Origin: Candidatus Methanoperedens sp.
GTDB taxonomy: Archaea > Halobacteriota > Methanosarcinia > Methanosarcinales > Methanoperedenaceae
Assembly: GCA_028715885.1 (NCBI GenBank)
Contig: JAQUQX010000001.1
Coordinates: 62,001 to 126,000, forward strand
Direction: 5' to 3'
DNA length: 64,000 nt
Position 1 is the stretch's first letter. Every line of letters begins with the position of its first letter. The notes under the pieces are model-generated. The model had not been told where the DNA came from. It searched no databases and saw nothing but the letters and a program-made list of their open reading frames with translations. The position numbers and the translations under genes are program-made. This document shows positions 40,581-59,933 of the stretch, one piece after another.

Positions 40581-40991
40581 ATGAACAAAAAGCTCAAAAA
40601 CATGCTCGGCATCGGGATCGTGGCAGTACTTATACTATATCTCGGAGCGCAGAGCTTCAGCAACGCACTCTCATTTTACTATGAAGTCGGTGAGTTTGTG
40701 CAGAAAGCGGATTCACTGAATGGAAAAGTTGTGAACGTGAATGGCAGCATAGTAAAAGGTTCAACTATATGGGAACCTGAGAAAGCCAGGCTGACGTTCA
40801 AACTTACTGATAATAACGCTTCTATCGTAGTAGTATCGAACGAAGGCATGCCCGGAAATTACAAAGAGGGGATCCCGGCAGTGGTAACGGGCTATTTTAT
40901 AAACGGTACTTTCCAGGCAACCCAGGTAATCACAAAATGCCCCTCAAAATACGGCGGAGACCTTGATCACGGAGACCATAACGAAACGTAA
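40581..40991 (+). CDS. ccmE: Cytochrome c maturation protein CcmE, CXXXY type
   Basis: A 136-residue haem chaperone with one N-terminal membrane anchor (GIGIVAVLILYLGA) and an OB-fold outside domain with VVNVNGSIVKGS. It ends with TQVITKCPSKYGGD: Cys120 and Tyr124 give the CXXXY motif that replaces the HXXXY haem-linking His of E. coli CcmE, as known for archaea and some bacteria. A His-rich tail (DHGDHNET) follows. It opens the ccm run and is 12 nt from ccmF, so haem is handed to the CcmF ligase. Confidence 0.93.
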   Translation: MNKKLKNMLGIGIVAVLILYLGAQSFSNALSFYYEVGEFVQKADSLNGKVVNVNGSIVKGSTIWEPEKARLTFKLTDNNASIVVVSNEGMPGNYKEGIPAVVTGYFINGTFQATQVITKCPSKYGGDLDHGDHNET

Positions 40992-41003
40992 AGGAGAATT
41001 TTA

Positions 41004-43004
41004 ATGGAATTTGGAGAAACAGCACTGACCATCGCATTGATAATGAGCATATACGCGCTTGTGGCTCACATAATCGGGATATGGAAAAAGAAAGATGAAC
41101 TTTTCGACAGCGCAAGGATTGCCGTTATTGGAATCGCAGTGCTTCTCACGGTAGCATCCATCTGGCTCTTTAATCTCTTCATTACCCGCAACTTCCAGTA
41201 TGAATATGTAGCCATATACAGCAGCACGGATTTACCGATGGCTTATACTCTCTCTGCATTCTGGGCAGGCGCCGACGGGTCGCTGCTGCTCTGGGCATGG
41301 CTGATATCCATTTATATTGCGATTATCGCTGTGAAGGGAAAATCATACGATAACCTGATTAAACATGCAATGCCCGTAATCCTTATCACCCTCACCTATT
41401 TCATTTACATGCTGCTCACGGTATCACGTCCATTCAGGATGCTTGATTTCATACCCGCGGACGGGAACGGGCTGAATCCACTGCTTCAGGACCCCGGCAT
41501 GTTCTTCCATCCCCCCACGCTTTTCTGGGGCTATGCCGGCGTGATAATCCCATTCGCCCTGATGATTGCAGGCATTTATCTATCAGATGATACATGGACG
41601 TATCGCGCTCGCCGCTGGGCGCTGTGGGCATGGCTCGGTCTGGCTCTCGGTAACATGTTCGGGAGCTACTGGGCTTATACGGTGCTCAACTGGGGCGGGT
41701 TCTGGGGCTGGGACCCCGTTGAGAACGCCTCGTTCCTTCCCTGGCTCACTTTGACCGCTTTCTACCACAGCACCATGATAACTGAGCGTAAAGGCGGCAT
41801 GAAGTTCTGGAATATCCTGCTCATCCTTTTCACATGGGAACTAACGGTGTACGGGACACTGCTCACGCGGAGCGGAATCATCGCTTCTGTCCATACCTTC
41901 GGGCAGTCTGTCACCGCGCCGTATTATATCAATTATATGATAGTGGTGCTTGCTGTTACGCTTATACTTGTGGCATGGAAATATAACTCGATACAGAGCA
42001 AGAAGGTCTTTGAATCCTTTGTCTCTCGTGAAGCAAGTTTCCTCTACAACAACTGGATATTCATGGCAGCGACCGCTTCTGTGCTATGGGGGACGACATA
42101 TCCATTGCTCTCGGAGGCTTTCCGCGGGTACAAAGTAATGGTGGGTCCCAGTTTCTACAACCAGGTGAACGTGCCGCTTGGCATAGCGCTTCTTTTCCTG
42201 ATGGCGATATGTCCGCTTATTGCGTGGAGGAAAGCTTCGGTTTCTCATCTTAAGAGAAACTTTACAAAGCCTCTCGCAGCAGCAGTAATTGCAATGGTCA
42301 TCGCTTTTGCGCTGGGTATCCGTGATTTCTATGCTCTTTTTGTTGCAGTTGCGGGCACTGTACTTGTCGTATCCACCCACTTTCTGGATATATCCAGGAT
42401 AGTGAACAAGCAGAAAAAGCTCGACGATGCAGGAGCCCTGAAGAATATTTCACGAGCGTTCTGGAATAACCGCCGCACCTTTGGCGGTTACATGTGCCAT
42501 ATCGCAATTCTCATGATAATCGTAGCAGCCGCGGGCGCTGTAGTGTATGAGCAGATGGAGACCTTTAATATGAAGATTGGCGACACGGCTAGCGTAGGAC
42601 ACTATGATTTCAAGCTCATCAAGATAGAACAGTATACTAAAAATAACAGACAGGAAACAGTAGCGTTATTCAACGTTTATAAGAACGGAGAGAAGGTTCT
42701 CGACGATGCCGCAGCAAAAATGTACTATTACGCCAGGCAGGAGAGTACGAATGTCAAGCCAATGGCTTACACCGTGGGCATAGATGACCTGTATTTTTCA
42801 GCTCAGGCTATCACTACTGACCACGTTACTGTGAAACTAAAGGTCATGCCCCTCATGTTCCTGATGTGGATAGGGGGATTCTACGTGCTGATACTTGGAA
42901 TCCTGATATGCATATCAACAGTTGTACCAATAAGGGAAAAGAGAATATCTGATAATATAAATATAAGCAAAAATATTAAAAAAACAACAACGGAGATTGT
43001 ATGA
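41004..43004 (+). CDS. ccmF: Cytochrome c haem lyase subunit CcmF
   Basis: A 666-residue membrane protein with about 15 spans. The WWD haem-handling segment is present as LNWGGFWGWDPVENASFLPW, and His residues in GMFFHPPTLFWGY and VHTFGQ are candidates for haem ligands. CcmF attaches haem to CXXCH of apocytochromes with CcmH. The last codons overlap the following gene by 4 nt. CcmA, B and C are not in this window. Confidence 0.95.
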   Translation: MEFGETALTIALIMSIYALVAHIIGIWKKKDELFDSARIAVIGIAVLLTVASIWLFNLFITRNFQYEYVAIYSSTDLPMAYTLSAFWAGADGSLLLWAWLISIYIAIIAVKGKSYDNLIKHAMPVILITLTYFIYMLLTVSRPFRMLDFIPADGNGLNPLLQDPGMFFHPPTLFWGYAGVIIPFALMIAGIYLSDDTWTYRARRWALWAWLGLALGNMFGSYWAYTVLNWGGFWGWDPVENASFLPWLTLTAFYHSTMITERKGGMKFWNILLILFTWELTVYGTLLTRSGIIASVHTFGQSVTAPYYINYMIVVLAVTLILVAWKYNSIQSKKVFESFVSREASFLYNNWIFMAATASVLWGTTYPLLSEAFRGYKVMVGPSFYNQVNVPLGIALLFLMAICPLIAWRKASVSHLKRNFTKPLAAAVIAMVIAFALGIRDFYALFVAVAGTVLVVSTHFLDISRIVNKQKKLDDAGALKNISRAFWNNRRTFGGYMCHIAILMIIVAAAGAVVYEQMETFNMKIGDTASVGHYDFKLIKIEQYTKNNRQETVALFNVYKNGEKVLDDAAAKMYYYARQESTNVKPMAYTVGIDDLYFSAQAITTDHVTVKLKVMPLMFLMWIGGFYVLILGILICISTVVPIREKRISDNINISKNIKKTTTEIV

Positions 43005-43423
43005 TGAAAAAAATAATTACAGCGTGGTTTTTCCTGCTTGTGCTTGCTGTCCCGGTACTGGCTGTGACAGAGGAAGAAATCACAGCAAACCTGAACTGTC
43101 CCGACCAGGGGGGGTGTACAATGATCGCGATTGATTGCACATGCCCAAGCGCGCTTGAGTTGAAAGATAAAGTCAGGGCAATGCTCGACCAGGGTCTTTC
43201 CGAGAAACAGATTTACAATAAACTTGTGGCAGAGTACGGAAAAGGCGTTCTTGCCACGCCGCCCAAAGAAGGATTTGACTGGATAGTATGGCTTGCTTTG
43301 CCTGCCGGGGTCATCGTGGGCGGAGTTGTTGTATATAAAATCAGCAGGAAAAGAATGGATGAGAACGAGGAATTTGAATTAGAATATGAAAAGTTCTTGC
43401 AGGAGAGAGAAAAACATGAATAA
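43001..43423 (+). CDS. ccmH: CcmH-like thiol protein, copy 1
   Basis: A 140-residue protein with signal peptide, outside domain and one C-terminal span (WIVWLALPAGVIVGGVVVY). The helical part KDKVRAMLDQGLSEKQIYNKLVAEYGKGVLATPP is classic CcmH. The redox Cys differ from the LRCxxC of bacteria: CPDQGGC and, a few residues later, DCTC. It would reduce apocytochrome Cys before haem ligation. Translation is coupled to ccmF (ATGA) and to the next gene (8-nt overlap). Confidence 0.9.
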   Translation: MMKKIITAWFFLLVLAVPVLAVTEEEITANLNCPDQGGCTMIAIDCTCPSALELKDKVRAMLDQGLSEKQIYNKLVAEYGKGVLATPPKEGFDWIVWLALPAGVIVGGVVVYKISRKRMDENEEFELEYEKFLQEREKHE

Positions 43424-45062
43424 ATTATTATCAATTTTTATAGTACTGGTCATTTTCGGCAGCGCCGCTTCCGCGGCTGAGATCAATGGCAATGTTGTAT
43501 CTTTCGGGAAAAAGCTTGCCGACCAGAAAGTTACGCTGAGCGGAGTAAATGCCACGCAGAACGCTGATACAGGTGTTGTTTATAATTTCAAACCACTCTC
43601 GGATACGACAACAGATAAGGATGGAAATTATGCCTTTAAGGATCTCAACGACGGTATGTACCGTGTCAACGTAACATACAATGACATAACTTATGGAGAA
43701 AATATCGGTCTTCGGGGGAAAGCCATAGTGGATTTCAATCTCTCTGAAAAGATCGAAGGATACGTACTGAAAGTGAATAATACTCTTGAAGGGGTAGCTG
43801 TGCGCCTCATGGATGAGACCGGGATCGAGGTAATGAGCATTGTTACTAATAAAACAGGAAAATATTCGTTTAACAAGGTCAATGCCGGGAAGAGTTATAT
43901 GGTGCAGGCGAATTATGCTGATGTACCCTATACAAAACAGGTGAATGCATCAGAAAAAGCTAATTTCACAGTTTACGAATCCACAAAAAATGGGGATGTG
44001 CTCAGCGTAAGTATTGACCATATTGTCCTTTCTAAAGCGACAAATGGGATAAAAGTTGATGAATACGTTGAATTCGTGAATACCGGGGATAAAGCCTTTT
44101 TCAGTAAAGACAGGGCATATGTCGGCATTTCAACACCAGAGGGTATAACAAGGTTCCAGACCGATGCAATGGAATGCTGCCTGCAAAGGGAGAAGGATGC
44201 AGCATGGATAGACCCGATGAATCCGATATTACCTGGCGGCACATACACAGCACAGATATCATATGTTTTTAATCCGGAATCTTCAAAGAACCTGTTTTAC
44301 AAAGGTATGATATACAATACGTCCTACATTACGCTGTTATCTGACAAAAAGAACGGTTTCGGGATTGAAAGTAAATATGCTAAAAAGGAAATAGTCCAGA
44401 ACGAAGGGAAAGAGTTTGAAGTCTTAAGCTTCATGAAGGTTCCAAAAGACCAGAAACTGGATATCCAGATAACAGGGTATGTTCCATCAAATACAGGTAC
44501 CGGAGGAGATTTCGGTTATCTTATTCCTGTAGTGGCGGTAGTGTTAATCGGAGCAGTCGTGTACCCGCTGCTCAAGAATAAAATTGGCAAAAAGCGAGGA
44601 AGACGCTTTGTTAAAACAGTGCCTGCTGCAGATGTTTCGATTGATGAGCCGCAGGAAGCAGATGGAATTATCCAGCAGCCGGATGTTGTTTCGGAAAATA
44701 CCGCCGGAAAAGACATAGGTGAAATGTCATTCGAGGAACTGTTGGCTTGTAAGAACGCTGCATTTGAATCTATCCTTGCTCTTGAAAATAAATTCAATGC
44801 GGGAGAAATTACGGAAAAAGAGTACAAAGAACTCAAGAAAGAATGCAAAGAAAATGCAACGCTTGTCCTGAAACAGTTAAAGGAAGCATCATTAAACCTT
44901 GATCTTAACCAGCCTGTTTTGGAACTTGAAAAAATGATAGCGCATATAGGCGACATAGATATTCTTGAAGAGCTGCTGGAACGGGAAAAAGAGGGAGACA
45001 ACAGGAATGAACTGATGGAGATTATTGAACAGAGAATAGACGATATCGAACGCAATGAGTGA
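43416..45062 (+). CDS. MECC-motif membrane protein, copy 1
   Basis: About 548 residues: signal peptide, two carboxypeptidase-regulatory-like beta domains (about 20-185, with DKDGNYAFKDLNDGMYRV), a further beta domain with the Cys pair in AMECCLQ (Cys254, 255), a membrane span (LIPVVAVVLIGAVVYPLL), then an inside helical tail with GEITEKEYKELKKE. The last three parts are paralogous to the protein at 45520. Location in the ccm run suggests a role with apocytochrome or thiol relay, comparable in position to CcmI, but no sequence likeness to CcmI. ATG 43416 is chosen for its signal peptide. Confidence 0.75.
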   Translation: MNKLLSIFIVLVIFGSAASAAEINGNVVSFGKKLADQKVTLSGVNATQNADTGVVYNFKPLSDTTTDKDGNYAFKDLNDGMYRVNVTYNDITYGENIGLRGKAIVDFNLSEKIEGYVLKVNNTLEGVAVRLMDETGIEVMSIVTNKTGKYSFNKVNAGKSYMVQANYADVPYTKQVNASEKANFTVYESTKNGDVLSVSIDHIVLSKATNGIKVDEYVEFVNTGDKAFFSKDRAYVGISTPEGITRFQTDAMECCLQREKDAAWIDPMNPILPGGTYTAQISYVFNPESSKNLFYKGMIYNTSYITLLSDKKNGFGIESKYAKKEIVQNEGKEFEVLSFMKVPKDQKLDIQITGYVPSNTGTGGDFGYLIPVVAVVLIGAVVYPLLKNKIGKKRGRRFVKTVPAADVSIDEPQEADGIIQQPDVVSENTAGKDIGEMSFEELLACKNAAFESILALENKFNAGEITEKEYKELKKECKENATLVLKQLKEASLNLDLNQPVLELEKMIAHIGDIDILEELLEREKEGDNRNELMEIIEQRIDDIERNE

Positions 45063-45091
45063 ACATGCAGGCGAATGAGGGATAAAAACCA

Positions 45092-45523
45092 GTGTTAAGG
45101 ACAATTGTATTGTTCGTTCTGTTAATACCGCTAACATCAATTAACACCATACATGCGGATGAGGACATGACTTCTATCCTGATATGCCCCTGCGAATGCG
45201 CCATGGTTATCTCAACATGCGATTGTCCTACTGCAATACAGGTTAAAAAAGAGATTACCCAGATGAAGGAAAATGGCTTTTCAGAAAAACAGGTATTTTC
45301 AGCACTCCAGGCAGAGTACGGAAAGGAGATACAGGTACATCCTGAAAAAACAAGTTCAACATCATTATGGATAGGCGGTATATCATTGAGCATTTTATTT
45401 GTGTTTCTTGGATACATTTTTACCAGAAAACCCAGCAAGGATACTATACCTGATATAAAAAAATACGAACAACGGTTTGAAGAAGAATACAAGAAGTTTG
45501 TTCTCGAAATGGAGGAACTGTGA
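45092..45523 (+). CDS. CcmH-like thiol protein, copy 2
   Basis: A 143-residue paralogue of the protein at 43001: signal peptide, Cys-rich site LICPCECAMVISTCDCPTA, helical part with KKEITQMKENGFSEKQVFSALQAEYGKEI, one span and a charged tail. The CPC-x-C...C-x-C site is like that of deltaproteobacterial CcmH proteins as I recall them. GTG start with AATGAGGG upstream at some distance. It overlaps the next gene by 4 nt (GTGA), so the same pair order as copy 1 is kept. Confidence 0.85.
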   Translation: MLRTIVLFVLLIPLTSINTIHADEDMTSILICPCECAMVISTCDCPTAIQVKKEITQMKENGFSEKQVFSALQAEYGKEIQVHPEKTSSTSLWIGGISLSILFVFLGYIFTRKPSKDTIPDIKKYEQRFEEEYKKFVLEMEEL

Positions 45524-46503
45524 AAATCGCTCTGAAGACCTTCATTCCCGTATTCCTGATACTGTTTTACTCAATAAGTATTATTTCAGCGGAAACCAAT
45601 GAGACTATTTCAGATGATGGACATAATCTGAGCAATCAGAGCTACGATATAAGGGTTGTTCTCGACCATATTTTCATTTCAAAGAAAGACAATTCTCTTG
45701 AGGTATCTGAAGTCGTAGTATTCAGGAATGAGGGGCAGGAGATTTATTACAGCAAGGGTAACCATACTTTCTTTGCCATATCAACCCCGCAGGATATAAA
45801 AAACCTGAAAACCCAGGCGATGGAGTGCTGCCTTGTGCAGGAAGAAGGATCGGTGCTTATGGACCCGATGCAGGCTGTTAAGCCGGGTGATAACTTCCAG
45901 ATGCAGGTATCGTATACACTTCTTTCCCGAAGTTCAGAGTATGTATTCAATAAAAGCGCCATATACAATACCACGTCTCTTTCGATATTCGTTGATAGAA
46001 AAGGAGGACTGGATCCCGGAGGAGCGTATGAGACTTTAACACTTGGCGGTGTTGAGTATGACGTTATTCCTTTTAAAGATCTTAAGGCAGGGGAATCTGT
46101 TCGTATTCCGATTAAAATGACTGGTAAGCCGGATTACTTTTATGCAGGAATCGGTATCATGCTGATCTTTTCACTCGGAATGGTTTACCATTTCAGGGGT
46201 AAAATCCTGAGGAAAAGAAAGGAATATACCCTGGATGAACTTGATCTTGAGAAAAGAAAGATTTTCCAGGCAATCCACGGATTTGAAAAACATGCAGGGG
46301 ATCTAAAATCGCAAGAGTACTTGAGATTAATGGATGAATACAGGCAGAAAGCAATCCAGATATTTATTAAAATAGATAAAATAAAAAATAAAGGTCAGCC
46401 AGAACATTTAAAAGGAATGGATGAAACGCAAACAAAGACCACTAAAACTAATCAGGAGGGTTTGGAGTGTCAAGATCAAAAAAGCATAAAGGAAAAATGT
46501 TGA
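45520..46503 (+). CDS. MECC-motif membrane protein, copy 2
   Basis: A 327-residue paralogue of the protein at 43416, without the two N-terminal regulatory-like domains. It has a signal peptide, the beta domain opening YDIRVVLDHIFISKKDNSLEVSE, the Cys pair in AMECCLVQ (Cys103, 104), one span and an inside helical tail with SQEYLRLMDEYRQKA. The conserved Cys pair in both copies may form a vicinal disulphide or metal site. The end overlaps the cupredoxin gene by 37 nt. Confidence 0.75.
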   Translation: MKIALKTFIPVFLILFYSISIISAETNETISDDGHNLSNQSYDIRVVLDHIFISKKDNSLEVSEVVVFRNEGQEIYYSKGNHTFFAISTPQDIKNLKTQAMECCLVQEEGSVLMDPMQAVKPGDNFQMQVSYTLLSRSSEYVFNKSAIYNTTSLSIFVDRKGGLDPGGAYETLTLGGVEYDVIPFKDLKAGESVRIPIKMTGKPDYFYAGIGIMLIFSLGMVYHFRGKILRKRKEYTLDELDLEKRKIFQAIHGFEKHAGDLKSQEYLRLMDEYRQKAIQIFIKIDKIKNKGQPEHLKGMDETQTKTTKTNQEGLECQDQKSIKEKC

Positions 46504-46931
46504 AAGAAAAACAAACGAAAAAATTGCCAATCATGAGCATTTTGTTCATGGTTATCGTTATTGCGATTTTCGGCGCTGCATTATATTTGATCATAAGCAA
46601 ATCAGCAACATTGGAACCTGTGAACAAAGATGCCATTAAAATGACCATCACCATGGCAGGCTTTGAACCAAATACGATCAGAGCAAAAGTCGGGCAGCCT
46701 GTTACCATAAATCTCATAAATCCGGATAATTCGCATCACACAGACGGCGGTGGAATGCATAACTTCATCCTGACATCGGGATTGGCAAACCTGAATATCA
46801 CTGTCCTGCCTGAAAGCCAGGAAGTTTTCACTTTCACGCCAACACAGAAAGGCGAATATCACTGGTACTGTGACATATGCTGTGGAGGCAAGGAGAATCC
46901 CGCCATGCATGGAACACTCATAGTGGCTTGA
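46467..46931 (+). CDS. Membrane-anchored cupredoxin
   Basis: A 154-residue protein with a basic N-terminus, one membrane anchor (IMSILFMVIVIAIFGAALYLII) and a cupredoxin domain: ITMAGFEPNTIRAKVGQPVTI, GMHNFILTS with the first His, and HWYCDICCGGKENPAMHG with Cys and Met/His ligands. The C-x3-C spacing recalls the CuA site of cytochrome oxidase subunit II and nitrous oxide reductase, but the intervening His of CuA is missing. It likely carries copper or electrons outside the membrane. GTG start with GGAGG upstream. Confidence 0.85.
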   Translation: MSRSKKHKGKMLKEKQTKKLPIMSILFMVIVIAIFGAALYLIISKSATLEPVNKDAIKMTITMAGFEPNTIRAKVGQPVTINLINPDNSHHTDGGGMHNFILTSGLANLNITVLPESQEVFTFTPTQKGEYHWYCDICCGGKENPAMHGTLIVA

Positions 46932-46941
46932 AGGAGGTACA

Positions 46942-47637
46942 ATGGCAATCGACCCACAAACGTTAACACTTCCACTTGTAATTACGGCAGGTTTAATTGA
47001 TGGTTTTAACCCCTGCGCTTTTGCAGTCCTGCTGCTTTTTATAACCTTTACAATGGGCATGCTACAGATGCAGGCAAATTACAGGTATGGATTGATGAAA
47101 GTGGGTTCGATATACATTAGCGGAATATTTGTAACCTACGTGTTAATAGGCGTGGGCATCCTGAGCGCCATATCCTTCTTTTCCACAACACACGCCGTGG
47201 GCAAGGCTGCTGCTTTTATTTCTATGATACTCGGAGTAGTAATAATGAAGGATTACTTCATACCGGGCGGGTTCGGGCTGGTAATACCGGAGAGCATGCA
47301 CACTACGATAAACAACTGGATAAGGAGAACCTCAGCGCCCGGTGTCTTCGGAGCCGGAGTCCTTGTCGGTCTTTGCACAGTGCCGTGCAGCGGAGGCATT
47401 TATCTAGCGGTCATAGGTTTGTTGTCACTGCAATCAACGCTGGCTCAGGGCATATTGTACCTTCTGCTCTACAACCTGATGCTTATCGTGCCTCTTGTTG
47501 CAGTTCTTCTTGCCTCATCAAACAGGAAAGTGGTAGATAAAATGGTTGCATGGCAGTCAAGGAATAAAAATGAGGTGAGACTGTTAATGGGCTCATTCAT
47601 GGTAGCGATGGGATTCGTGATACTGTTGATAATATAA
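46942..47637 (+). CDS. ccdA: CcdA/DsbD-type thiol transporter
   Basis: A 231-residue membrane protein with six spans that brings reducing power from inside to outside. The two redox Cys are in GFNPCAFAVLL and LCTVPCSGGIYL, in the expected spans. Such proteins keep CcmH/CcmG-type thiols reduced for cytochrome c assembly and also feed other envelope thiol proteins. It starts 10 nt after the cupredoxin with GGAGG before the ATG. Confidence 0.93.
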   Translation: MAIDPQTLTLPLVITAGLIDGFNPCAFAVLLLFITFTMGMLQMQANYRYGLMKVGSIYISGIFVTYVLIGVGILSAISFFSTTHAVGKAAAFISMILGVVIMKDYFIPGGFGLVIPESMHTTINNWIRRTSAPGVFGAGVLVGLCTVPCSGGIYLAVIGLLSLQSTLAQGILYLLLYNLMLIVPLVAVLLASSNRKVVDKMVAWQSRNKNEVRLLMGSFMVAMGFVILLII

Positions 47638-47650
47638 CAAGAAGGATGAT

Positions 47651-48130
47651 ATGAAATCAAAATTTATTTTCAGTGCAATTGCAATTGCAGCGTTCTTAAT
47701 AATCGCCTACTTTATGTCCGGTGACGCACAAACATTAAACAAAACGCCTGGCGAAAAACCAGCAAGCTGGGATAATAGTAAACCGAAAATTGAACTTCCG
47801 GAATTCGCCCAAAAAACCGGGCGTGTGGCTGAAGCTTACATCTATGCAGTGCAGAATCAGGACAAGCTCATGTACCTTGCCTGTTACTGTGGATGTGCAG
47901 GCATGCAGCACTCAGACAAACTCCTTTCACATAAGAGCCTGAAGGAGTGTTACATCAAACCGAATGGAGAATATGAGCCTCATGCATCGGAATGCAAGCT
48001 GTGCAACGACATAACACTGGAAGCAAGGGATCTATTAATGAAAGGATATTCACTGAAAGAGGTCAGGGAAAAAATTGATAATGAGTATTCAGGCAGGGGT
48101 GTAGGAACAAATACATCATTGCCGCCATAG
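47651..48130 (+). CDS. PCYCGC-like envelope protein
   Basis: A 159-residue protein with N-terminal membrane anchor or signal segment and a domain with YLACYCGCAGMQH, then KECYIK and ECKLCNDI; this is the layout of PCYCGC-motif proteins, which have no defined biochemical role and often sit in copper- or stress-related clusters. The final helices ARDLLMKGYSLKEVREKIDNEY look like the helical part of CcmH. It follows ccdA by 13 nt and may receive electrons from it. Confidence 0.8.
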   Translation: MKSKFIFSAIAIAAFLIIAYFMSGDAQTLNKTPGEKPASWDNSKPKIELPEFAQKTGRVAEAYIYAVQNQDKLMYLACYCGCAGMQHSDKLLSHKSLKECYIKPNGEYEPHASECKLCNDITLEARDLLMKGYSLKEVREKIDNEYSGRGVGTNTSLPP

Positions 48131-48415: not shown

Positions 48416-48676
48416 ATGGACAATACGAAGAACCAAAGTATGAATGAAGGATTTTTCAGCAGGCACAGGCATACATTAATGATGGTGCTCGGCTGCATAA
48501 TCCCGCTTGTGCTCCTGGGGATTTTATGGATTGCAGGAGTCTCGCAGAACATACTATCATTTGGGATACTGCTGCTTTGCCCTATAATGCATCTTGTAAT
48601 GATGAAAAATATGAAGCATGGTACGCAGAACCCTGAAAGCCAGATTGATGAAAACAAAAAAGAGGAACTTACATGA
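48416..48676 (+). CDS. Small membrane protein (DUF2933-like)
   Basis: An 86-residue protein with a soluble N-terminus, FFSRHRHTLMMVLGCIIPL, two spans and CPIMHLVMMKNMKHG. The Cys-Pro-x-Met-His and Met/His-rich end is typical of DUF2933 proteins that co-occur with copper-resistance genes. Its end overlaps the lipoprotein gene by 4 nt (ATGA). Confidence 0.7.
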   Translation: MDNTKNQSMNEGFFSRHRHTLMMVLGCIIPLVLLGILWIAGVSQNILSFGILLLCPIMHLVMMKNMKHGTQNPESQIDENKKEELT

Positions 48677-49068
48677 GAATATCAGGAATAATAATAACTT
48701 TATTCGTATTGATGGCAGTAGCTATCAGTGGCTGCTTATCAGGAGACGAGAAGCCTCCCGCTGATTTATTGGAGCCGAGGGAGAATTCGGAAGCAGATGT
48801 TAAAATATCAGTCACTTATTTGCCTGATATTACCGATGCCACTGCTTTTGAAATTAAAGTCACCGCCCATAAGAACTATAACGATGATTTCAAGAATAAC
48901 TCCTACCTGCGGGATTCCAGTGGCAAAATATATCAACCTCTGTCTTATGAGGGCGAAGGCGGGCATCATGCAAGCGGTACACTTCGATTTCCTAAGATTG
49001 AAAGCAAGAGATTTGAACTTGTGATTAAGGATATTGCAGGAGTAAATGAGAGGGTCTTTAAGTGGTAA
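48673..49068 (+). CDS. Lipoprotein-like secreted protein
   Basis: A 131-residue protein with signal peptide and lipobox VAISGC (Cys about 23), then an Ig-like beta domain of about 100 residues ending FELVIKDIAGVNERVFKW. I recognise no family for the domain. It contains a His-His-x-x-G stretch (GGHHASG) which might bind metal. Coupled by overlap to the genes on both sides. Confidence 0.7.
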   Translation: MRISGIIITLFVLMAVAISGCLSGDEKPPADLLEPRENSEADVKISVTYLPDITDATAFEIKVTAHKNYNDDFKNNSYLRDSSGKIYQPLSYEGEGGHHASGTLRFPKIESKRFELVIKDIAGVNERVFKW

Positions 49069-49572: not shown

Positions 49573-50169
49573 ATGAAAAAAGTTTATATTATAATTATTG
49601 TGGCTGCTGTGCTTGCAGTATTTTTTTTATACTCATCGGATGCAAAGAAAAGCATCTTCACAGAGAAAGTGGGTGACATGACTCTGACCAGATACGAAAC
49701 TGGCGAGACGGCAGCACAGCAGGTATCGAACATGTACGGTTTGAAAGCCATACCCATTTCGAAAGCTTATTCAGCAGTGTATAAGAGCAGAAAAGGCACC
49801 ATGCGTATCTGGGCAGTAGAAGCTCCGGATCATAATGCTGCAAATGATGCATTTAATGCCATGAACTCGATGCTTGGAGGTTCAACAGGGCACGAAGGAC
49901 ATGAATACTCGGGTGATGTGGAACAGACAGACTCCCATAAAGGGCACGGCGATGCAGGTATTATGAATGAAAACTTCACTAAACCCGTAAAATTGGAAAT
50001 CATGGAGTTTGTAAAGCCCGAAGTATATACGATGTACGCAAATAATGCAGTCAATTATTATTATTTTAAAATGAATTACAATATGGGGAGAGTTTACTGG
50101 ATAATTTTTGATTCACCGGATATGGACTATCAGGTTTCAATTGTGAAACAGGCGGTAATGGATATATAG
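49573..50169 (+). CDS. LGDM-family envelope protein 1, with His insert
   Basis: A 198-residue protein with N-terminal anchor (YIIIIVAAVLAVFFLY) and an outside domain opening EKVGDMTLTRYETGETA. It is the first of three tandem paralogues. Only this one has a His-rich insert at about 107-125 (His 107, 110, 122, 125), a likely metal-binding loop, before the common C-terminal part with VYWIIFDSPDMDYQ. Family unknown to me. Confidence 0.72.
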   Translation: MKKVYIIIIVAAVLAVFFLYSSDAKKSIFTEKVGDMTLTRYETGETAAQQVSNMYGLKAIPISKAYSAVYKSRKGTMRIWAVEAPDHNAANDAFNAMNSMLGGSTGHEGHEYSGDVEQTDSHKGHGDAGIMNENFTKPVKLEIMEFVKPEVYTMYANNAVNYYYFKMNYNMGRVYWIIFDSPDMDYQVSIVKQAVMDI

Positions 50170-50177
50170 GTGAGACC

Positions 50178-50708
50178 ATGAAGAAAAATATATCTGAAAT
50201 ATACCTTGCAATATTCATAATCGCAGTAATAGCTATTACCGTATTCCTGTATCAGGAGACACAGGAGAAGAATGCCTTCGGCATTTTCCCTGAAAAACTG
50301 GGCGATATGACCATCGCACTCTACAGGGACGGAGATGCGGCTATGGCAGATGTGAAAGGGCTGCATGGCAATAATCCTGATGTAAAAATCGAGAATGCCT
50401 ATATAGCAAACTACAGGAGTACACCTGCCAGCAAAGCCAAATTCTGGGTATCGGAGTCGAAAACAAAAGGCGAAGCCGTATCCCTTCTTGAGTCGATGAA
50501 CAGCAGGGTGGGAAAAACAGGGATGTTCAGTGATTCCACACCATTGAACATAGAAGGAATTACTGTTTATTTTGTGAGCGGGAAACCGGAAGTGGGTCTG
50601 TACCATTACTTCTATGCCAGAGATAAAAGGGTGTTCTGGATACAGATAGACAACCCGGATGAAGCTTACAGACTCAACTTCGTGAAAGAATCTATAAAAC
50701 GGATTTAG
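50178..50708 (+). CDS. LGDM-family envelope protein 2
   Basis: A 176-residue paralogue: anchor, PEKLGDMTIALYRDGDAA, ANYRSTPASKAKFWVSES, SMNSRVGKTGMF, and the end RVFWIQIDNPDEAYRLNFVKES. It keeps the same order of blocks as its neighbours without the His insert. It starts 8 nt after protein 1. Confidence 0.72.
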   Translation: MKKNISEIYLAIFIIAVIAITVFLYQETQEKNAFGIFPEKLGDMTIALYRDGDAAMADVKGLHGNNPDVKIENAYIANYRSTPASKAKFWVSESKTKGEAVSLLESMNSRVGKTGMFSDSTPLNIEGITVYFVSGKPEVGLYHYFYARDKRVFWIQIDNPDEAYRLNFVKESIKRI

Positions 50709-50712
50709 CGCA

Positions 50713-51222
50713 ATGAAACGCAGAAGAAATGGTTTTTATCTGATTGCATTTTCAGTCATAATAATTATTGTTTTGGCATTGCTGTTATACCAGAGTGAGA
50801 CGGCGCTTTTCCCGGATAAGCTCGGCGACATGGAACTTAAACTTCACAGGGAGGGGGACATAGCGATTCGCGAGATTAAAGGCTCCCATGAAGCGAAGGA
50901 TAATGTCAATCCCGGAGAAGCCCATGTGGCGCGCTACAGGAACAGCGCGGGCAGCAGGGCGACGGTATCTTTAACAGTGGCAGAGACAAACCAGAGGGCA
51001 GTGGAAACAGTGGAGAACATGAATCGCGGGATGGGCGGGATGTTCAGCAAACCTGAAACACTTGAAATAAACGGTTCAAAAATATATTACACTGAAGGCG
51101 GCGGCGAATATCACTATTATTATCCGAAGGGCAGCTTTGTTGTCTGGATAGCCATCAGCAATCCCGACAGGGCATACCAATCAGCGCTTATGGATGAATC
51201 AGTCAAAAGCATAGGTGGATGA
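50713..51222 (+). CDS. LGDM-family envelope protein 3
   Basis: A 169-residue paralogue with PDKLGDMELKLHREGDIA, ARYRNSAGSRATVSL, NMNRGMGGMF and VVWIAISNPDRAYQSALMDES. It starts 4 nt after protein 2 and its stop overlaps the methyltransferase gene by 4 nt, so all three and the enzyme form one unit. Confidence 0.72.
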   Translation: MKRRRNGFYLIAFSVIIIIVLALLLYQSETALFPDKLGDMELKLHREGDIAIREIKGSHEAKDNVNPGEAHVARYRNSAGSRATVSLTVAETNQRAVETVENMNRGMGGMFSKPETLEINGSKIYYTEGGGEYHYYYPKGSFVVWIAISNPDRAYQSALMDESVKSIGG

Positions 51223-51986
51223 CCATGAGAAAATTTTTTAGCGACCTGATTGCGATTGGATTTATTGTGCTCATGGCTTTAACTTTCCTTTCAGGTATAT
51301 CCGTGCTTCTTGGCTATGAAAAACCTGAAAATATCGAAGGCTTGGGGCATCACGACCTCACAGAATATGCCTATAGCAACTGGGGAGCGACACTTCTTAG
51401 CGTTGGGATTTTTTCTTTCTTCGTGCTCAGCTTCCTTACCCCGCTGAAGAAGCAGAACTGGCGGACACTGGGAATATACGAGGCGTTCATAATAGCGCTG
51501 TTCTCGGAGATGTACGGCTTCCCGCTTACGATATATGTTCTCTCTTCGCTTTTCGGACTGAATCTCTCTTTAGGGCATGCAGAGGGACACCTGCTCGGGG
51601 TGCTGCTTTCAAAAGCAGGTGTAATGAGCATGGAAAGTGCATGGGCGCTGGTGATGGTGACAAGCAGTGCCGTTATATTCTTTGGTCTATTCCTGATGTC
51701 AAAAGGCTGGAGCATGATACATTCGTCTCACGGAGAACTTGTGACTGATGGCGTTTACAGATATGTAAGGCATCCCCAGTATCTCGGTCTTATTATACTG
51801 ACAGTGGGTTTGCTCATCCAGTGGCCTACGATAATTACCCTTGCGATGTGGCCCGTTCTTATTCTGATGTATTACAGGCTCGCTAAAAAAGAAGAAAGGG
51901 AAGCGACAGATGCATTCGGCGAGAGATACGAAGAGTATAGACGGCAGACTCCGATGTTTTTCCCGTCAATTAGACCTCTCTTTTAA
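51219..51986 (+). CDS. Isoprenylcysteine methyltransferase-like membrane enzyme
   Basis: A 255-residue membrane protein with about six spans. The C-terminal half shows DGVYRYVRHPQYLGLIIL, then KKEEREATDAFGERYEEYRR, the SAM-binding block of the ICMT/PEMT/NnrU-like group. Such enzymes methylate a carboxyl, amine or thiol at the membrane face; homologues often lie in copper clusters. The substrate is unknown. Its 3' end overlaps the convergent gene at 51970 by 17 nt. Confidence 0.82.
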   Translation: MTMRKFFSDLIAIGFIVLMALTFLSGISVLLGYEKPENIEGLGHHDLTEYAYSNWGATLLSVGIFSFFVLSFLTPLKKQNWRTLGIYEAFIIALFSEMYGFPLTIYVLSSLFGLNLSLGHAEGHLLGVLLSKAGVMSMESAWALVMVTSSAVIFFGLFLMSKGWSMIHSSHGELVTDGVYRYVRHPQYLGLIILTVGLLIQWPTIITLAMWPVLILMYYRLAKKEEREATDAFGERYEEYRRQTPMFFPSIRPLF

Positions 51987-52559: not shown

Positions 52560-54395
52560 TTAGTATATATCCAGCATCTTTTCCCCGCCAATCAGGCACG
52601 GTGCGGTTTCATCGTTAACATTGCAGCATTTCCTTAGAACCACGACTGTCGCAAGTCCACCTGCAAAACTGGCAATGCTTGACCTGCCGCATTTATGGAA
52701 CGGGCGTTCTTTTGGAGTGAGGAAACGTAACTCGAATTTCTCCTTCAGCATTCGCTCTGTGAGATATGAGTAGAACTTCCCTGTCATATCTGTTGGTAAA
52801 CTGTGAAAAACATAGATTACATAACCGTCCTTGTTTATCACGCGCAGGAATTCTGTCACCGCCTTCTTTGGCTCCTTCAAAGTTTCCAGCGCCCACGTGC
52901 AGGTAACTACGTCAAATGAATTATCAGGGTATGGAAGAGCTGTAATATCCTGAATCTCAAAGCTCACCCCTTTTACTTTAATTTTCTCTCTTGCTATTTT
53001 CAGCATCCCTTTTGAGATATCGATGCCAATAACTTCTGAAGGGTTAGAGTTTTTAAGTATAGCTTTAATTGTTTCTCCTGTCCCGGTGCCGGCATCAAGC
53101 ACTCTCGCTCCATCTTTTATATTTTTATGTAATAACCCCTCAAAATACTTCCATACTCCTTTTCCCATAGTATTTTTCCAGAGGGATACATAAGAATCGT
53201 ACTGGCATGCTATCGAATCATACGTCTCCCGAACATCCAGGGGTCTGGTTTTAAGAAGTCCGAGATATGCTAAAATTTCGATGCCTGCTTTGCTTTTCAT
53301 TTTACTCCATAGTTGTTCATAGCTTACCTCTCCCTTCACGACTCCAAAAATTTGTTCATAGAATTCCGGGTGATGTTTCAGCAGTTCATATCCGAATTTC
53401 GGGAAGGTGTAAAAGACCATGCCGATTTTTCGCGCATACTGAAATTCGGGGTATATTTCCTGGGCTATGCGCTCCTGATACATTGCAGTTGTTGTATTCC
53501 CCGTCAGTATACCTTGAGCCGCCTCTGCCGCAATCTGCCCGCTGCGTATCGCATAATAGATTCCTTCGCCAAGGAAAGGATCAACGAGAGCGGCAGCATC
53601 GCCGGTCAGCATAGTTCGAAAGGTCGTGATTTCAGACTCACCATCAAAAAAAGGAACGGTATACCCAAACTTACGTTCGCTCTCAATGTCATCCAGCAAA
53701 TACTGGTCTGATAGAAATTGTGAGTAGTAAGGTTTGGGAGTTTTTATCATTTCCTTCAACCCACCCACTCCGAGCGAGAGGTGGTCAGCCTTGGGGAAAA
53801 TCCAGCCGTAACCGTATGGGACTGAGCCAAAATCGAACAGAATTTCATCGCATACCTTGTTGAATGCTTTCTCTTTGACCTCAACCTCGCCCTCAATAAG
53901 TACGGCAATCTTTTTTTTGGGTTTGAGTCCGAGTGACCGTGCGATTATACCGTTAACCCCATCAGCGCCAATAAGAAGCTTGGAAGAGTACATATCTTTT
54001 TCAGTCATTACAATCACACTGTCCTTTCCCTCTTCCACATGAGTGACTTTCTCCTGCTCGTGTATTTCGGCTCCGGCAGCTTTTGCCTTCTCCACGAGGA
54101 AGCTATCGAAGACGTTCCTCATGACCATATACACTATGGGTTGGTCGGATACTACTCTTATATCTCCAGTTCCCTTGAATGTAAAGTTCACTTTAGATAT
54201 GGTTCTCTCAACTACGCTTTTGAAATCCGGTTCAAGTATCTTCTCTATCTTGGCAGTAAGTCCTCCACCGCAGGGCTTGTATCTTGGATGCTTTTGCTTG
54301 TCGAGTGCCAGCACTTTGAAACCCTTTTTGCTCAGCTCATAGGTAGCGGTTGCTCCAGCCGGGCCCAGACCTGCCACTATGACGTCGTATTTCAT
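52560..54395 (-). CDS. Geranylgeranyl reductase-family flavoprotein fused to methyltransferase
   Basis: A 611-residue two-domain protein. Residues 1 to about 370 are a flavoprotein of the geranylgeranyl reductase group: VIVAGLGPAGATATYEL (FAD), RYKPCGGGLTAKIE, GDAAALVDPFLGEGI. Residues about 390-560 are a class I methyltransferase with VLDAGTGTGETIKAIL and FDVVTCTWALETL, ending with a Cys-containing tail (LRKCCNV). Reductases of this group saturate archaeal lipid chains or menaquinones; the methyltransferase part resembles UbiE. A joint role in quinone or lipid modification is likely. I see no frame break at the junction. Confidence 0.88.
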   Translation of the reverse strand: MKYDVIVAGLGPAGATATYELSKKGFKVLALDKQKHPRYKPCGGGLTAKIEKILEPDFKSVVERTISKVNFTFKGTGDIRVVSDQPIVYMVMRNVFDSFLVEKAKAAGAEIHEQEKVTHVEEGKDSVIVMTEKDMYSSKLLIGADGVNGIIARSLGLKPKKKIAVLIEGEVEVKEKAFNKVCDEILFDFGSVPYGYGWIFPKADHLSLGVGGLKEMIKTPKPYYSQFLSDQYLLDDIESERKFGYTVPFFDGESEITTFRTMLTGDAAALVDPFLGEGIYYAIRSGQIAAEAAQGILTGNTTTAMYQERIAQEIYPEFQYARKIGMVFYTFPKFGYELLKHHPEFYEQIFGVVKGEVSYEQLWSKMKSKAGIEILAYLGLLKTRPLDVRETYDSIACQYDSYVSLWKNTMGKGVWKYFEGLLHKNIKDGARVLDAGTGTGETIKAILKNSNPSEVIGIDISKGMLKIAREKIKVKGVSFEIQDITALPYPDNSFDVVTCTWALETLKEPKKAVTEFLRVINKDGYVIYVFHSLPTDMTGKFYSYLTERMLKEKFELRFLTPKERPFHKCGRSSIASFAGGLATVVVLRKCCNVNDETAPCLIGGEKMLDIY

Positions 54396-54431: not shown

Positions 54432-54610
54432 TTTTGGTTTAAATTTGACAACCAACTTGTAGCGTTTATCGAAGGGTATGAATCGGATATAACAAAGGGT
54501 TTTTATTCACCACCACGCAAACTCCCGTATTTGTTAAAGCGGTTTTTGGTTTAAACTTGAAAATAATTGTAAAAAAAACATCACTAAGACTTTACAAACT
54601 TAAACCAAAA
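54432..54610. repeat. Three copies of TTTTGGTTTAA in divergent gap
   Basis: TTTTGGTTTAAA at 54432-54443 and 54544-54555 (direct), and the inverted TTAAACCAAAA at 54600-54610. The last two form an imperfect hairpin or operator pair. The gap (54396-54654) lies between the reductase-methyltransferase fusion gene and the Cys micropeptide; no other gene is seen in it. Confidence 0.55.
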
Positions 54611-54654
54611 GCCAATTAAGGAATTAAGCTAATTCATTTAAAGGAGGTGAATTT

Positions 54655-54720
54655 GTGAAGATTAGAAAAGTTAAGAAAACCGCAAGAGGAACATGCAAAT
54701 GCCATTCTTCGTGCGCTTAG
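54655..54720 (+). CDS. Cys-rich micropeptide, 21 aa
   Basis: A GTG preceded by AAGGAGGTGA, a full match to the 16S anti-Shine-Dalgarno, 4 nt away, opens a 21-residue frame. The peptide is basic in its first half (KIRKVKKTARG) and ends CKCHSSCA, i.e. three Cys and one His, suited to bind a metal. It lies between a repeat cluster and the YHS gene at 54807. The ribosome site is among the strongest in the window, which argues for real translation. Confidence 0.5.
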   Translation: MKIRKVKKTARGTCKCHSSCA

Positions 54721-59544: not shown

Positions 59545-59713
59545 TTCTACATAGCTTCTACGTTGTAATGGTATAATACGTTGAGGTTAAAACGTGGATT
59601 ATAATCAATGCTCATTTGACAGGGAACTCAGAATTTCTCTGGCATGAATTGAGAGTTTAAAAAATATCAGGCAAAAATTTCCAAATTTAAAGCAAAACCT
59701 ACTTAACGTATCT

Positions 59714-59728: not shown

Positions 59729-59750
59729 AACATATAAGGATGTGAAACAA

Positions 59751-59933
59751 ATGGATTGTTGCGGTTCAAAAAAAGATGATAATAAAAAAGATGAGACAAC
59801 AATAAAAAATGCAAAACAGGAAACTGCGCCGGAAGAACATTCTCACGGCGGATGCTGCGGCGGGAACCCGTGGACTATGGTCGTTATGATTATTTTCATG
59901 GCAATCATCCTGTATCTCACTTACAAGAGGTAG
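59751..59933 (+). CDS. Cys/His-rich small membrane protein
   Basis: A 60-residue protein: DCCGSKKDD at the N-terminus, a Lys/Glu-rich middle, HSHGGCCGG, then one C-terminal span (WTMVVMIIFMAIILYLTY). Two Cys-Cys pairs and two His may bind copper or a similar metal. ATG 59751 is preferred to a GTG three codons earlier because AAGGATGTG is at usable distance. Its stop is 1 nt before the next gene. Confidence 0.72.
   Translation: MDCCGSKKDDNKKDETTIKNAKQETAPEEHSHGGCCGGNPWTMVVMIIFMAIILYLTYKR

Follow-up and report, generated by a model that had tools for sequence, protein, structure and literature searches.

A Tiny Conserved Gene of Methanoperedens Encodes a Probable Precursor of a Radical SAM-Modified Peptide

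Is a reading frame of only 21 codons a gene, and what would its product, which ends in a cluster of cysteines, do in an archaeon that oxidizes methane? Gene callers tend to overlook peptides of such size, and the one considered here, VKIRKVKKTARGTCKCHSSCA, lies in a 64-kb stretch of a Candidatus Methanoperedens genome, the whole of which we refer to as the window (table 1). The initial annotation had described a 21-residue frame behind a full Shine–Dalgarno sequence, 4 nt from a GTG, between a cluster of repeats and a YHS gene; the coordinates of the frame and the positions of both flanking features are confirmed. It had also noted a basic head and a CKCHSSC tail, and both recur in aligned homologs, such that residues 1–12 form a basic, leader-like head and residues 14–20 the CKCHSSC core. 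When both strands are scanned, GGAGGTGA has a single occurrence in the window, and a mean of 0.24 cases of a Shine–Dalgarno sequence followed by a tiny reading frame is expected by chance (random first-order windows).

Table 1. Features of the window discussed in the text.
Feature	Coordinates	Strand	Remark
Small lipoprotein (..FELVIKDIAGVNERVFKW)	48673..49068	+	Homologs beside peptide copies in L339 and L249
ICMT-like membrane methyltransferase	51219..51986	+	44–47% identical homologs beside Nitrospirota copies L318 and L336
FAD-dependent reductase (geranylgeranyl-reductase-like) fused to class I methyltransferase	52560..54395	-	Divergent from peptide
Third element copy CAAATTTAAACCAAAA	54432..54447	-	Start 52 nt before ATG of divergent FAD/methyltransferase gene
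Second element copy	54544..54559	-	Faces divergent FAD/methyltransferase gene
Element copy CAAACTTAAACCAAAA	54595..54610	+	Starts 60 nt before peptide GTG; AATTAA (TATA-like) stretch follows
Shine–Dalgarno sequence AAGGAGGTGA	54641..54650	+	4-nt gap to GTG at 54655
Putative precursor peptide VKIRKVKKTARGTCKCHSSCA, 21 aa	54655..54720	+	GTG start, TAG stop 54718–54720
YHS-domain metal-binding protein, 55 aa	54807..54974	+	Downstream of peptide
Fourth element copy CAAATTTAAAGCAAAA, one mismatch	59682..59697	+	60 nt before GTG 59742, 69 nt before ATG 59751
Cys/His-rich small membrane protein MDCCGS...HSHGGCCGG-TM	59742..59933	+	Start GTG 59742 or ATG 59751

Several lines of evidence indicate that the frame is a gene. 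Homologs were recovered in 30 of 60 relatives by a six-frame search (E ≤ 1e-3); each of these genomes has between one and four copies, often two to four that are dispersed, and the aligned copies follow the pattern M[KTR]I[RVK]K[IV]KK..RGTCKCHSSC[AT]. Among 41 aligned copies from Methanoperedens and near relatives, which start with ATG, GTG, or TTG, pairwise differences within codons 14–20 number 80, 40, and 2821 at codon positions 1, 2, and 3, respectively; therefore, the changes in the core are nearly all synonymous. A purine-rich ribosome site is retained in 38 of 40 copies and is strong in 33 of the 40. Thus, relatives keep both the frame and the ribosome site, the loss of which the initial annotation had named as the observation that would count against its proposal. 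Given this conservation, and core changes that are near-exclusively synonymous, we conclude that 54655–54720 is, judged from its sequence, a real and strongly conserved gene. Apparently decaying copies are also seen (a frameshifted CKCFLLL, a CKCHSSY, and an element that no peptide follows, in L071, L075, and L286), which suggests gene turnover.

Across phyla, the family carries the signature M-x-I-x-K-...-C-[KE]-C-x-x-S-C at a length of 20–21 residues, in which C14, C16, S19, and C20 are invariant and K5 and K15 almost invariant. Within the phylum of the window the peptide occurs in 20 of 394 genomes, mainly in one family that we infer to be Archaeoglobi-like and that has a full three-gene cassette plus additional dispersed peptide copies. 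It is also present in about 29% of sampled Nitrospirota as well as in Desulfobacterota and Actinomycetota. A direct hmmscan against Pfam and NCBIfam returned no curated family at E ≤ 10 and no match to a metallothionein or other named small metal-binding family, a search that has weak power for 21 residues. The viral contigs searched held no match to a core pattern that requires TCN serines and the histidine, and in the open-licence literature nothing relevant was found on the core motif or on a radical SAM RiPP of Methanoperedens.

The genes that accompany the peptide bear on its function. In about 11 Methanoperedens-type loci it adjoins two conserved genes, encoding a 54-aa protein with a CxxC...LEC pattern (the partner) and a radical SAM/SPASM protein of about 395 aa, which we call the maturase; the end of the partner gene and the start of the maturase gene overlap or are at most a few bases apart. 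Peptide and maturase, where adjacent, are separated by about 55 nt. Profile A1 of the maturase has matches in 28 of 30 peptide-bearing relatives and in none of 30 peptide-free ones. With genomes counted as independent and shared ancestry ignored, the resulting table (both, peptide only, maturase only, neither) of 28/2/0/30 gives P = 8e-15 and its within-genus part of 25/1/0/5 gives P = 4e-5. The two peptide-bearing relatives without a maturase match are draft assemblies, 84% and 91% complete. The same association is found among 246 genomes of Nitrospirota, the phylum of L118, with a table of 69/2/11/164 (Fisher P = 2e-46, shared ancestry again ignored), and there 51 peptide copies lie 27–200 nt from the maturase and 34 elsewhere. 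Maturase homologs with 38–44% identity are encoded in Nitrospirae, an Actinomycetes MAG, Desulfarculus, Desulfobacterales, and the archaeon Candidatus Mnemosynella; they are adjoined by a 20-aa peptide that ends in CKCxxSC or CECKGSC, and all 12 genomes of this cross-phylum set have at least one peptide. The archaeal maturases group together, apart from the bacterial sequences, in a single clade (100/98), from which we conclude that the link between peptide and maturase is long-held. Each genome has a single maturase gene. In the genome of the window it lies with the partner gene at G000:C16 and the two peptide genes lie on other contigs (C1, which contains the window, and C11); modification would therefore occur in trans.

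Some further features of these loci were observed. The bacterial CxxC partners carry their motif twice (L118 4508–4846, L125 4509–4853, and L127 4665–4988), and in L118 and L125 the partner and the maturase are divergently oriented, and genes for a ferredoxin and for rubrerythrin-like proteins are close by. In six Archaeoglobi-like loci (L248, L253, L254, L256, L264, and L269) the cassette begins about 100 nt after the same gene, whose product starts MPV[VI]TLYWDELE.MVG... and which we take to be of the phenylalanyl-tRNA synthetase beta type.

The sequence and modeled structure of the maturase are consistent with a peptide-modifying enzyme. Its CX3CX2C motif (C105/C109/C112) is invariant. The SPASM pattern is C-x10-G-x4-C ... 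CX2CX5CX3C ... C, and the corresponding residues (C303, G314, C319; C353/C356/C362/C366; C384), including seven SPASM cysteines, are invariant as well. The model of the maturase from the window's own genome (pLDDT 91.7) has as its best fold matches SkfB, SuiB with bound precursor, and CteB (5why/5wgg), those to SuiB and CteB extending over the whole length, and SkfB is also the top solved relative of the maturase profile by sequence. The N-terminal 80 or so residues are modeled as three strands followed by three helices, a form expected of a RiPP recognition element (RRE), which weakly suggests an RRE-like domain; Pfam PqqD matches this region weakly and in one relative only (E = 0.022). The maturase reaches the cut-off of no NCBIfam equivalog, its top scores being near 110 bits against cut-offs of 265–850, and the partner has no family match and a weak structure model (pLDDT 73). 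Traits expected of a RiPP system are present, namely a short encoded precursor with a conserved head and a modifiable core, a tie between precursor and maturase through adjacency and co-occurrence, and the CX3CX2C and SPASM cysteines of the maturase. The initial annotation had listed the precursor of a modified peptide among its options, and the co-occurrence and adjacency, across phyla, with a radical SAM/SPASM protein that resembles RiPP maturases strongly support it.

The repeat cluster upstream of the peptide proved to be three copies of one element, CAAANTTAAACCAAAA. Many other peptide copies of Methanoperedens have the same element in front of them, at -59 to -61, and when as many as two mismatches are allowed its core lies upstream of 24 of 40 copies. 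The exact element is rare, 31 genomes containing it 15 times in all. Peptide copies or a decayed copy follow it in seven or eight of these cases, and in the others it precedes MDCCG...CCGG-type membrane proteins, a FAD reductase locus, or short hydrophobic ORFs. It is absent from the maturase locus of the window's genome. The element looks like a regulator site or an extended promoter for a small regulon. The FAD reductase gene at 52560–54395 has the element in common with the peptide, and its relatives recur beside other peptide copies. In L276 and L282, the exact element is followed by proteins similar to the product of the gene at 59742. We note that the gene at 52560–54395, in which a FAD domain of the geranylgeranyl-reductase-like kind is fused to a class I methyltransferase, is an unusual one, and that in L278 and L288 a further micropeptide, the hydrophobic MKDKEMILVIFFMLIFVAILGLAAILLM of 28 aa, begins 64 nt downstream of where the same element starts and stands before a FAD reductase gene.

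A link to copper emerges from the neighborhoods of peptide copies, and this association is clear only in Nitrospirota. There, a P-type ATPase is encoded within 4 kb of 12 of 14 CKCH-type copies versus 4 of 26 copies of other types (P = 2e-5), and all eight ATPases scanned from these islands score above the curated cut-off for the copper-translocating subfamily. The top domains next to CKCH copies are YHS (13 proteins), with which HAD hydrolase ties, and E1-E2 ATPase (11), whereas the contrast set has TPR and GHMP kinase proteins as neighbors. As a separate observation, six Nitrospirota CKCK copies (L316, L325, L334, L340, L341, and L342) repeatedly stand before a TPR-type protein and an ispE-like GHMP kinase. 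The Archaeoglobi-like group gives 4 of 10 versus 0 of 10 copies with a P-type ATPase, which is not significant (P = 0.09). In Methanoperedens, a P-type ATPase is encoded within 4 kb of just 3 of the 39 CKCH copies, and we therefore scaled back the idea of copper as a theme for all copies of this genus. Furthermore, the CKCH form there also adjoins the maturase, and thus the histidine is not a marker of a copper subtype in Methanoperedens.

The window does not itself hold an operon of this kind, as we could find no P-type ATPase motif in it. Four of its genes nevertheless have homologs in the Nitrospirota islands, encoding the ICMT-like, YHS, lipoprotein, and PCYCGC proteins; the lipoprotein encoded at 48673 is 43% identical to its island homolog over 60 residues, and the YHS domain recurs in proteins next to bacterial peptide copies. 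Other neighbors recur beside archaeal copies. Shortly upstream of the peptide region, 40581–48130 forms an island for cytochrome c biogenesis and redox functions, with genes for CcmE, CcmF, and two CcmH proteins as well as for DsbD-like, cupredoxin, and PCYCGC proteins. At 49573–51222 there are three tandem small membrane-anchored paralogs (..FPDKLGDM.L..YR.G..A..), the first without a Pfam match, and relatives of two of them adjoin the archaeal peptide copy in L257. The metal-binding option of the initial annotation thus gains indirect support from the copper-ATPase/YHS islands around CKCH copies and from the element shared with genes for Cys-rich proteins.

Taken together, these findings lead us to favor the hypothesis that VKIRKVKKTARGTCKCHSSCA is probably the precursor of a radical SAM-modified RiPP, with a maturase that acts in trans and a role in copper or thiol handling. 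A putative RRE-like domain at the N-terminus of the maturase would read the basic head (about residues 1–12), the co-encoded small CxxC...C protein may assist, and the SPASM radical SAM enzyme would then alter CKCHSSC at the C-terminus, with the linking of a Cys sulfur to a neighboring residue as the most probable reaction. By analogy with SkfB and CteB, we tentatively name a thioether as the likeliest modification. The dispersed peptide genes would answer to local regulators, and the CKCH subtype, including the copy in the window, may bind or buffer copper or a similar thiophilic metal or serve in thiol redox chemistry, a role that we regard as evenly balanced between true and false when this subtype is taken by itself.

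The same genes might instead supply a small redox cofactor or signal that is cut out of the peptide, as in PQQ and mycofactocin, with the metal genes nearby serving the same stress rather than pointing to a product that binds metal. The invariance of the core over phyla, the single maturase per genome, and the small conserved size fit such a product, as do the genes for cytochrome c biogenesis, DsbD-like, cupredoxin, and thioredoxin-type proteins in the vicinity. However, the CxxC partner alone travels with the cassette, no conserved peptidase or oxidase being seen with it, and many dispersed copies would be unusual for a cofactor precursor, such that we consider a cofactor or signal unlikely. 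It seems more doubtful still that the peptide is left unmodified as a mini-metallothionein or chaperone, with the radical SAM protein using the metal-loaded peptide or acting on another target. Although CxCHxxC is plausible as a soft-metal site and copper ATPases are encoded near some copies, the near-perfect co-occurrence and adjacency with an enzyme resembling RiPP maturases hold also for the CKCK and CKCS forms, which lack the histidine. Since the YHS gene follows it directly in the window, the frame could finally be a regulatory leader (attenuator) of that gene or of genes downstream, yet other copies precede unrelated genes on either strand, and conservation acts at the level of amino acids rather than RNA. 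Based on the differing downstream genes and the amino-acid-level conservation we reject this idea, to which we assign almost no probability.

We therefore return to the modified precursor. It is possible, if slightly short of an even prospect, that the peptides form an as yet unnamed RiPP family of archaea and several bacterial phyla, in which many unlinked precursors served by one trans-acting maturase yield a housekeeping copper or thiol peptide that is recruited to copper islands and, in methane-oxidizing archaea, governed by a regulatory element of its own. No curated model that we searched describes the peptide, though it is found in about three of ten sampled Nitrospirota and in most Methanoperedens, and the maturase and peptide profiles offer a route to annotation for hundreds of genomes. 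Should the mature peptide indeed handle copper or thiols, it would represent a rare case of a radical SAM RiPP that serves a conserved function in the cell instead of acting as a weapon, and one that occurs in archaea that oxidize methane with c-type cytochromes.

Several known systems resemble the present one in part. CbpA/CbpB (TIGR04164/TIGR04163, "cobopep") similarly pair a tiny precursor, modeled over 25 positions, with a radical SAM protein. We rejected CbpA (cut-off 35 bits), which gives chance-level matches in the window's genome and none at the ORF, and CbpB (cut-off 375 bits), for which scores fall below the cut-off and the best matches are another radical SAM family. The latter (MAFHVMLIPTLGCPSNCSYCWSS; L023–L032, e.g., L030) is itself weakly scored, and no peptide of the CKCHSSC family lies beside it in these loci. 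The best NCBIfam score of the G034 maturase is to the GeoRSP radical SAM/SPASM model (TIGR04303), at 108 bits against a cut-off of 400. PQQ and mycofactocin combine a precursor of PqqA size, a SPASM enzyme, and recognition by PqqD, and the present system is alike in its conserved PqqA-sized precursor, its SPASM enzyme, and a putative PqqD-like recognition domain; it differs in its cysteine core and its dispersed, multi-copy precursors, and no further pathway genes were seen. The sactipeptide maturases SkfB, AlbA, and StsB share the fold and the order of domains, with SkfB ranking first by both structure and sequence, but the sactipeptide models score far below their NCBIfam cut-offs here (StsB, 88–92 vs. 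625; AlbA, 84 vs. 850). The precursors of SkfB, AlbA, and StsB are toxins or antibiotics. The SCIFF/ranthipeptide system (CteA–CteB) is similar in having a Cys-rich precursor across a wide clade and a radical SAM/SPASM maturase with an RRE-like head, here a putative one, and CteB, which aligns from position 21 of profile A2, is among the top fold matches. SCIFF precursors have six cysteines in about 45 residues compared with three in 20–21 residues here, the SCIFF maturase model is not among the best 25 NCBIfam matches of the maturase, and, unlike SCIFF, the precursors described here are dispersed, with some copies linked to copper. SCIFFs are widespread, which reviewers read as evidence against an antimicrobial role (PMC8326336). 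In the family described here the core is unchanged across phyla, and for this reason we consider its product likelier to be a housekeeping peptide than an antibiotic.
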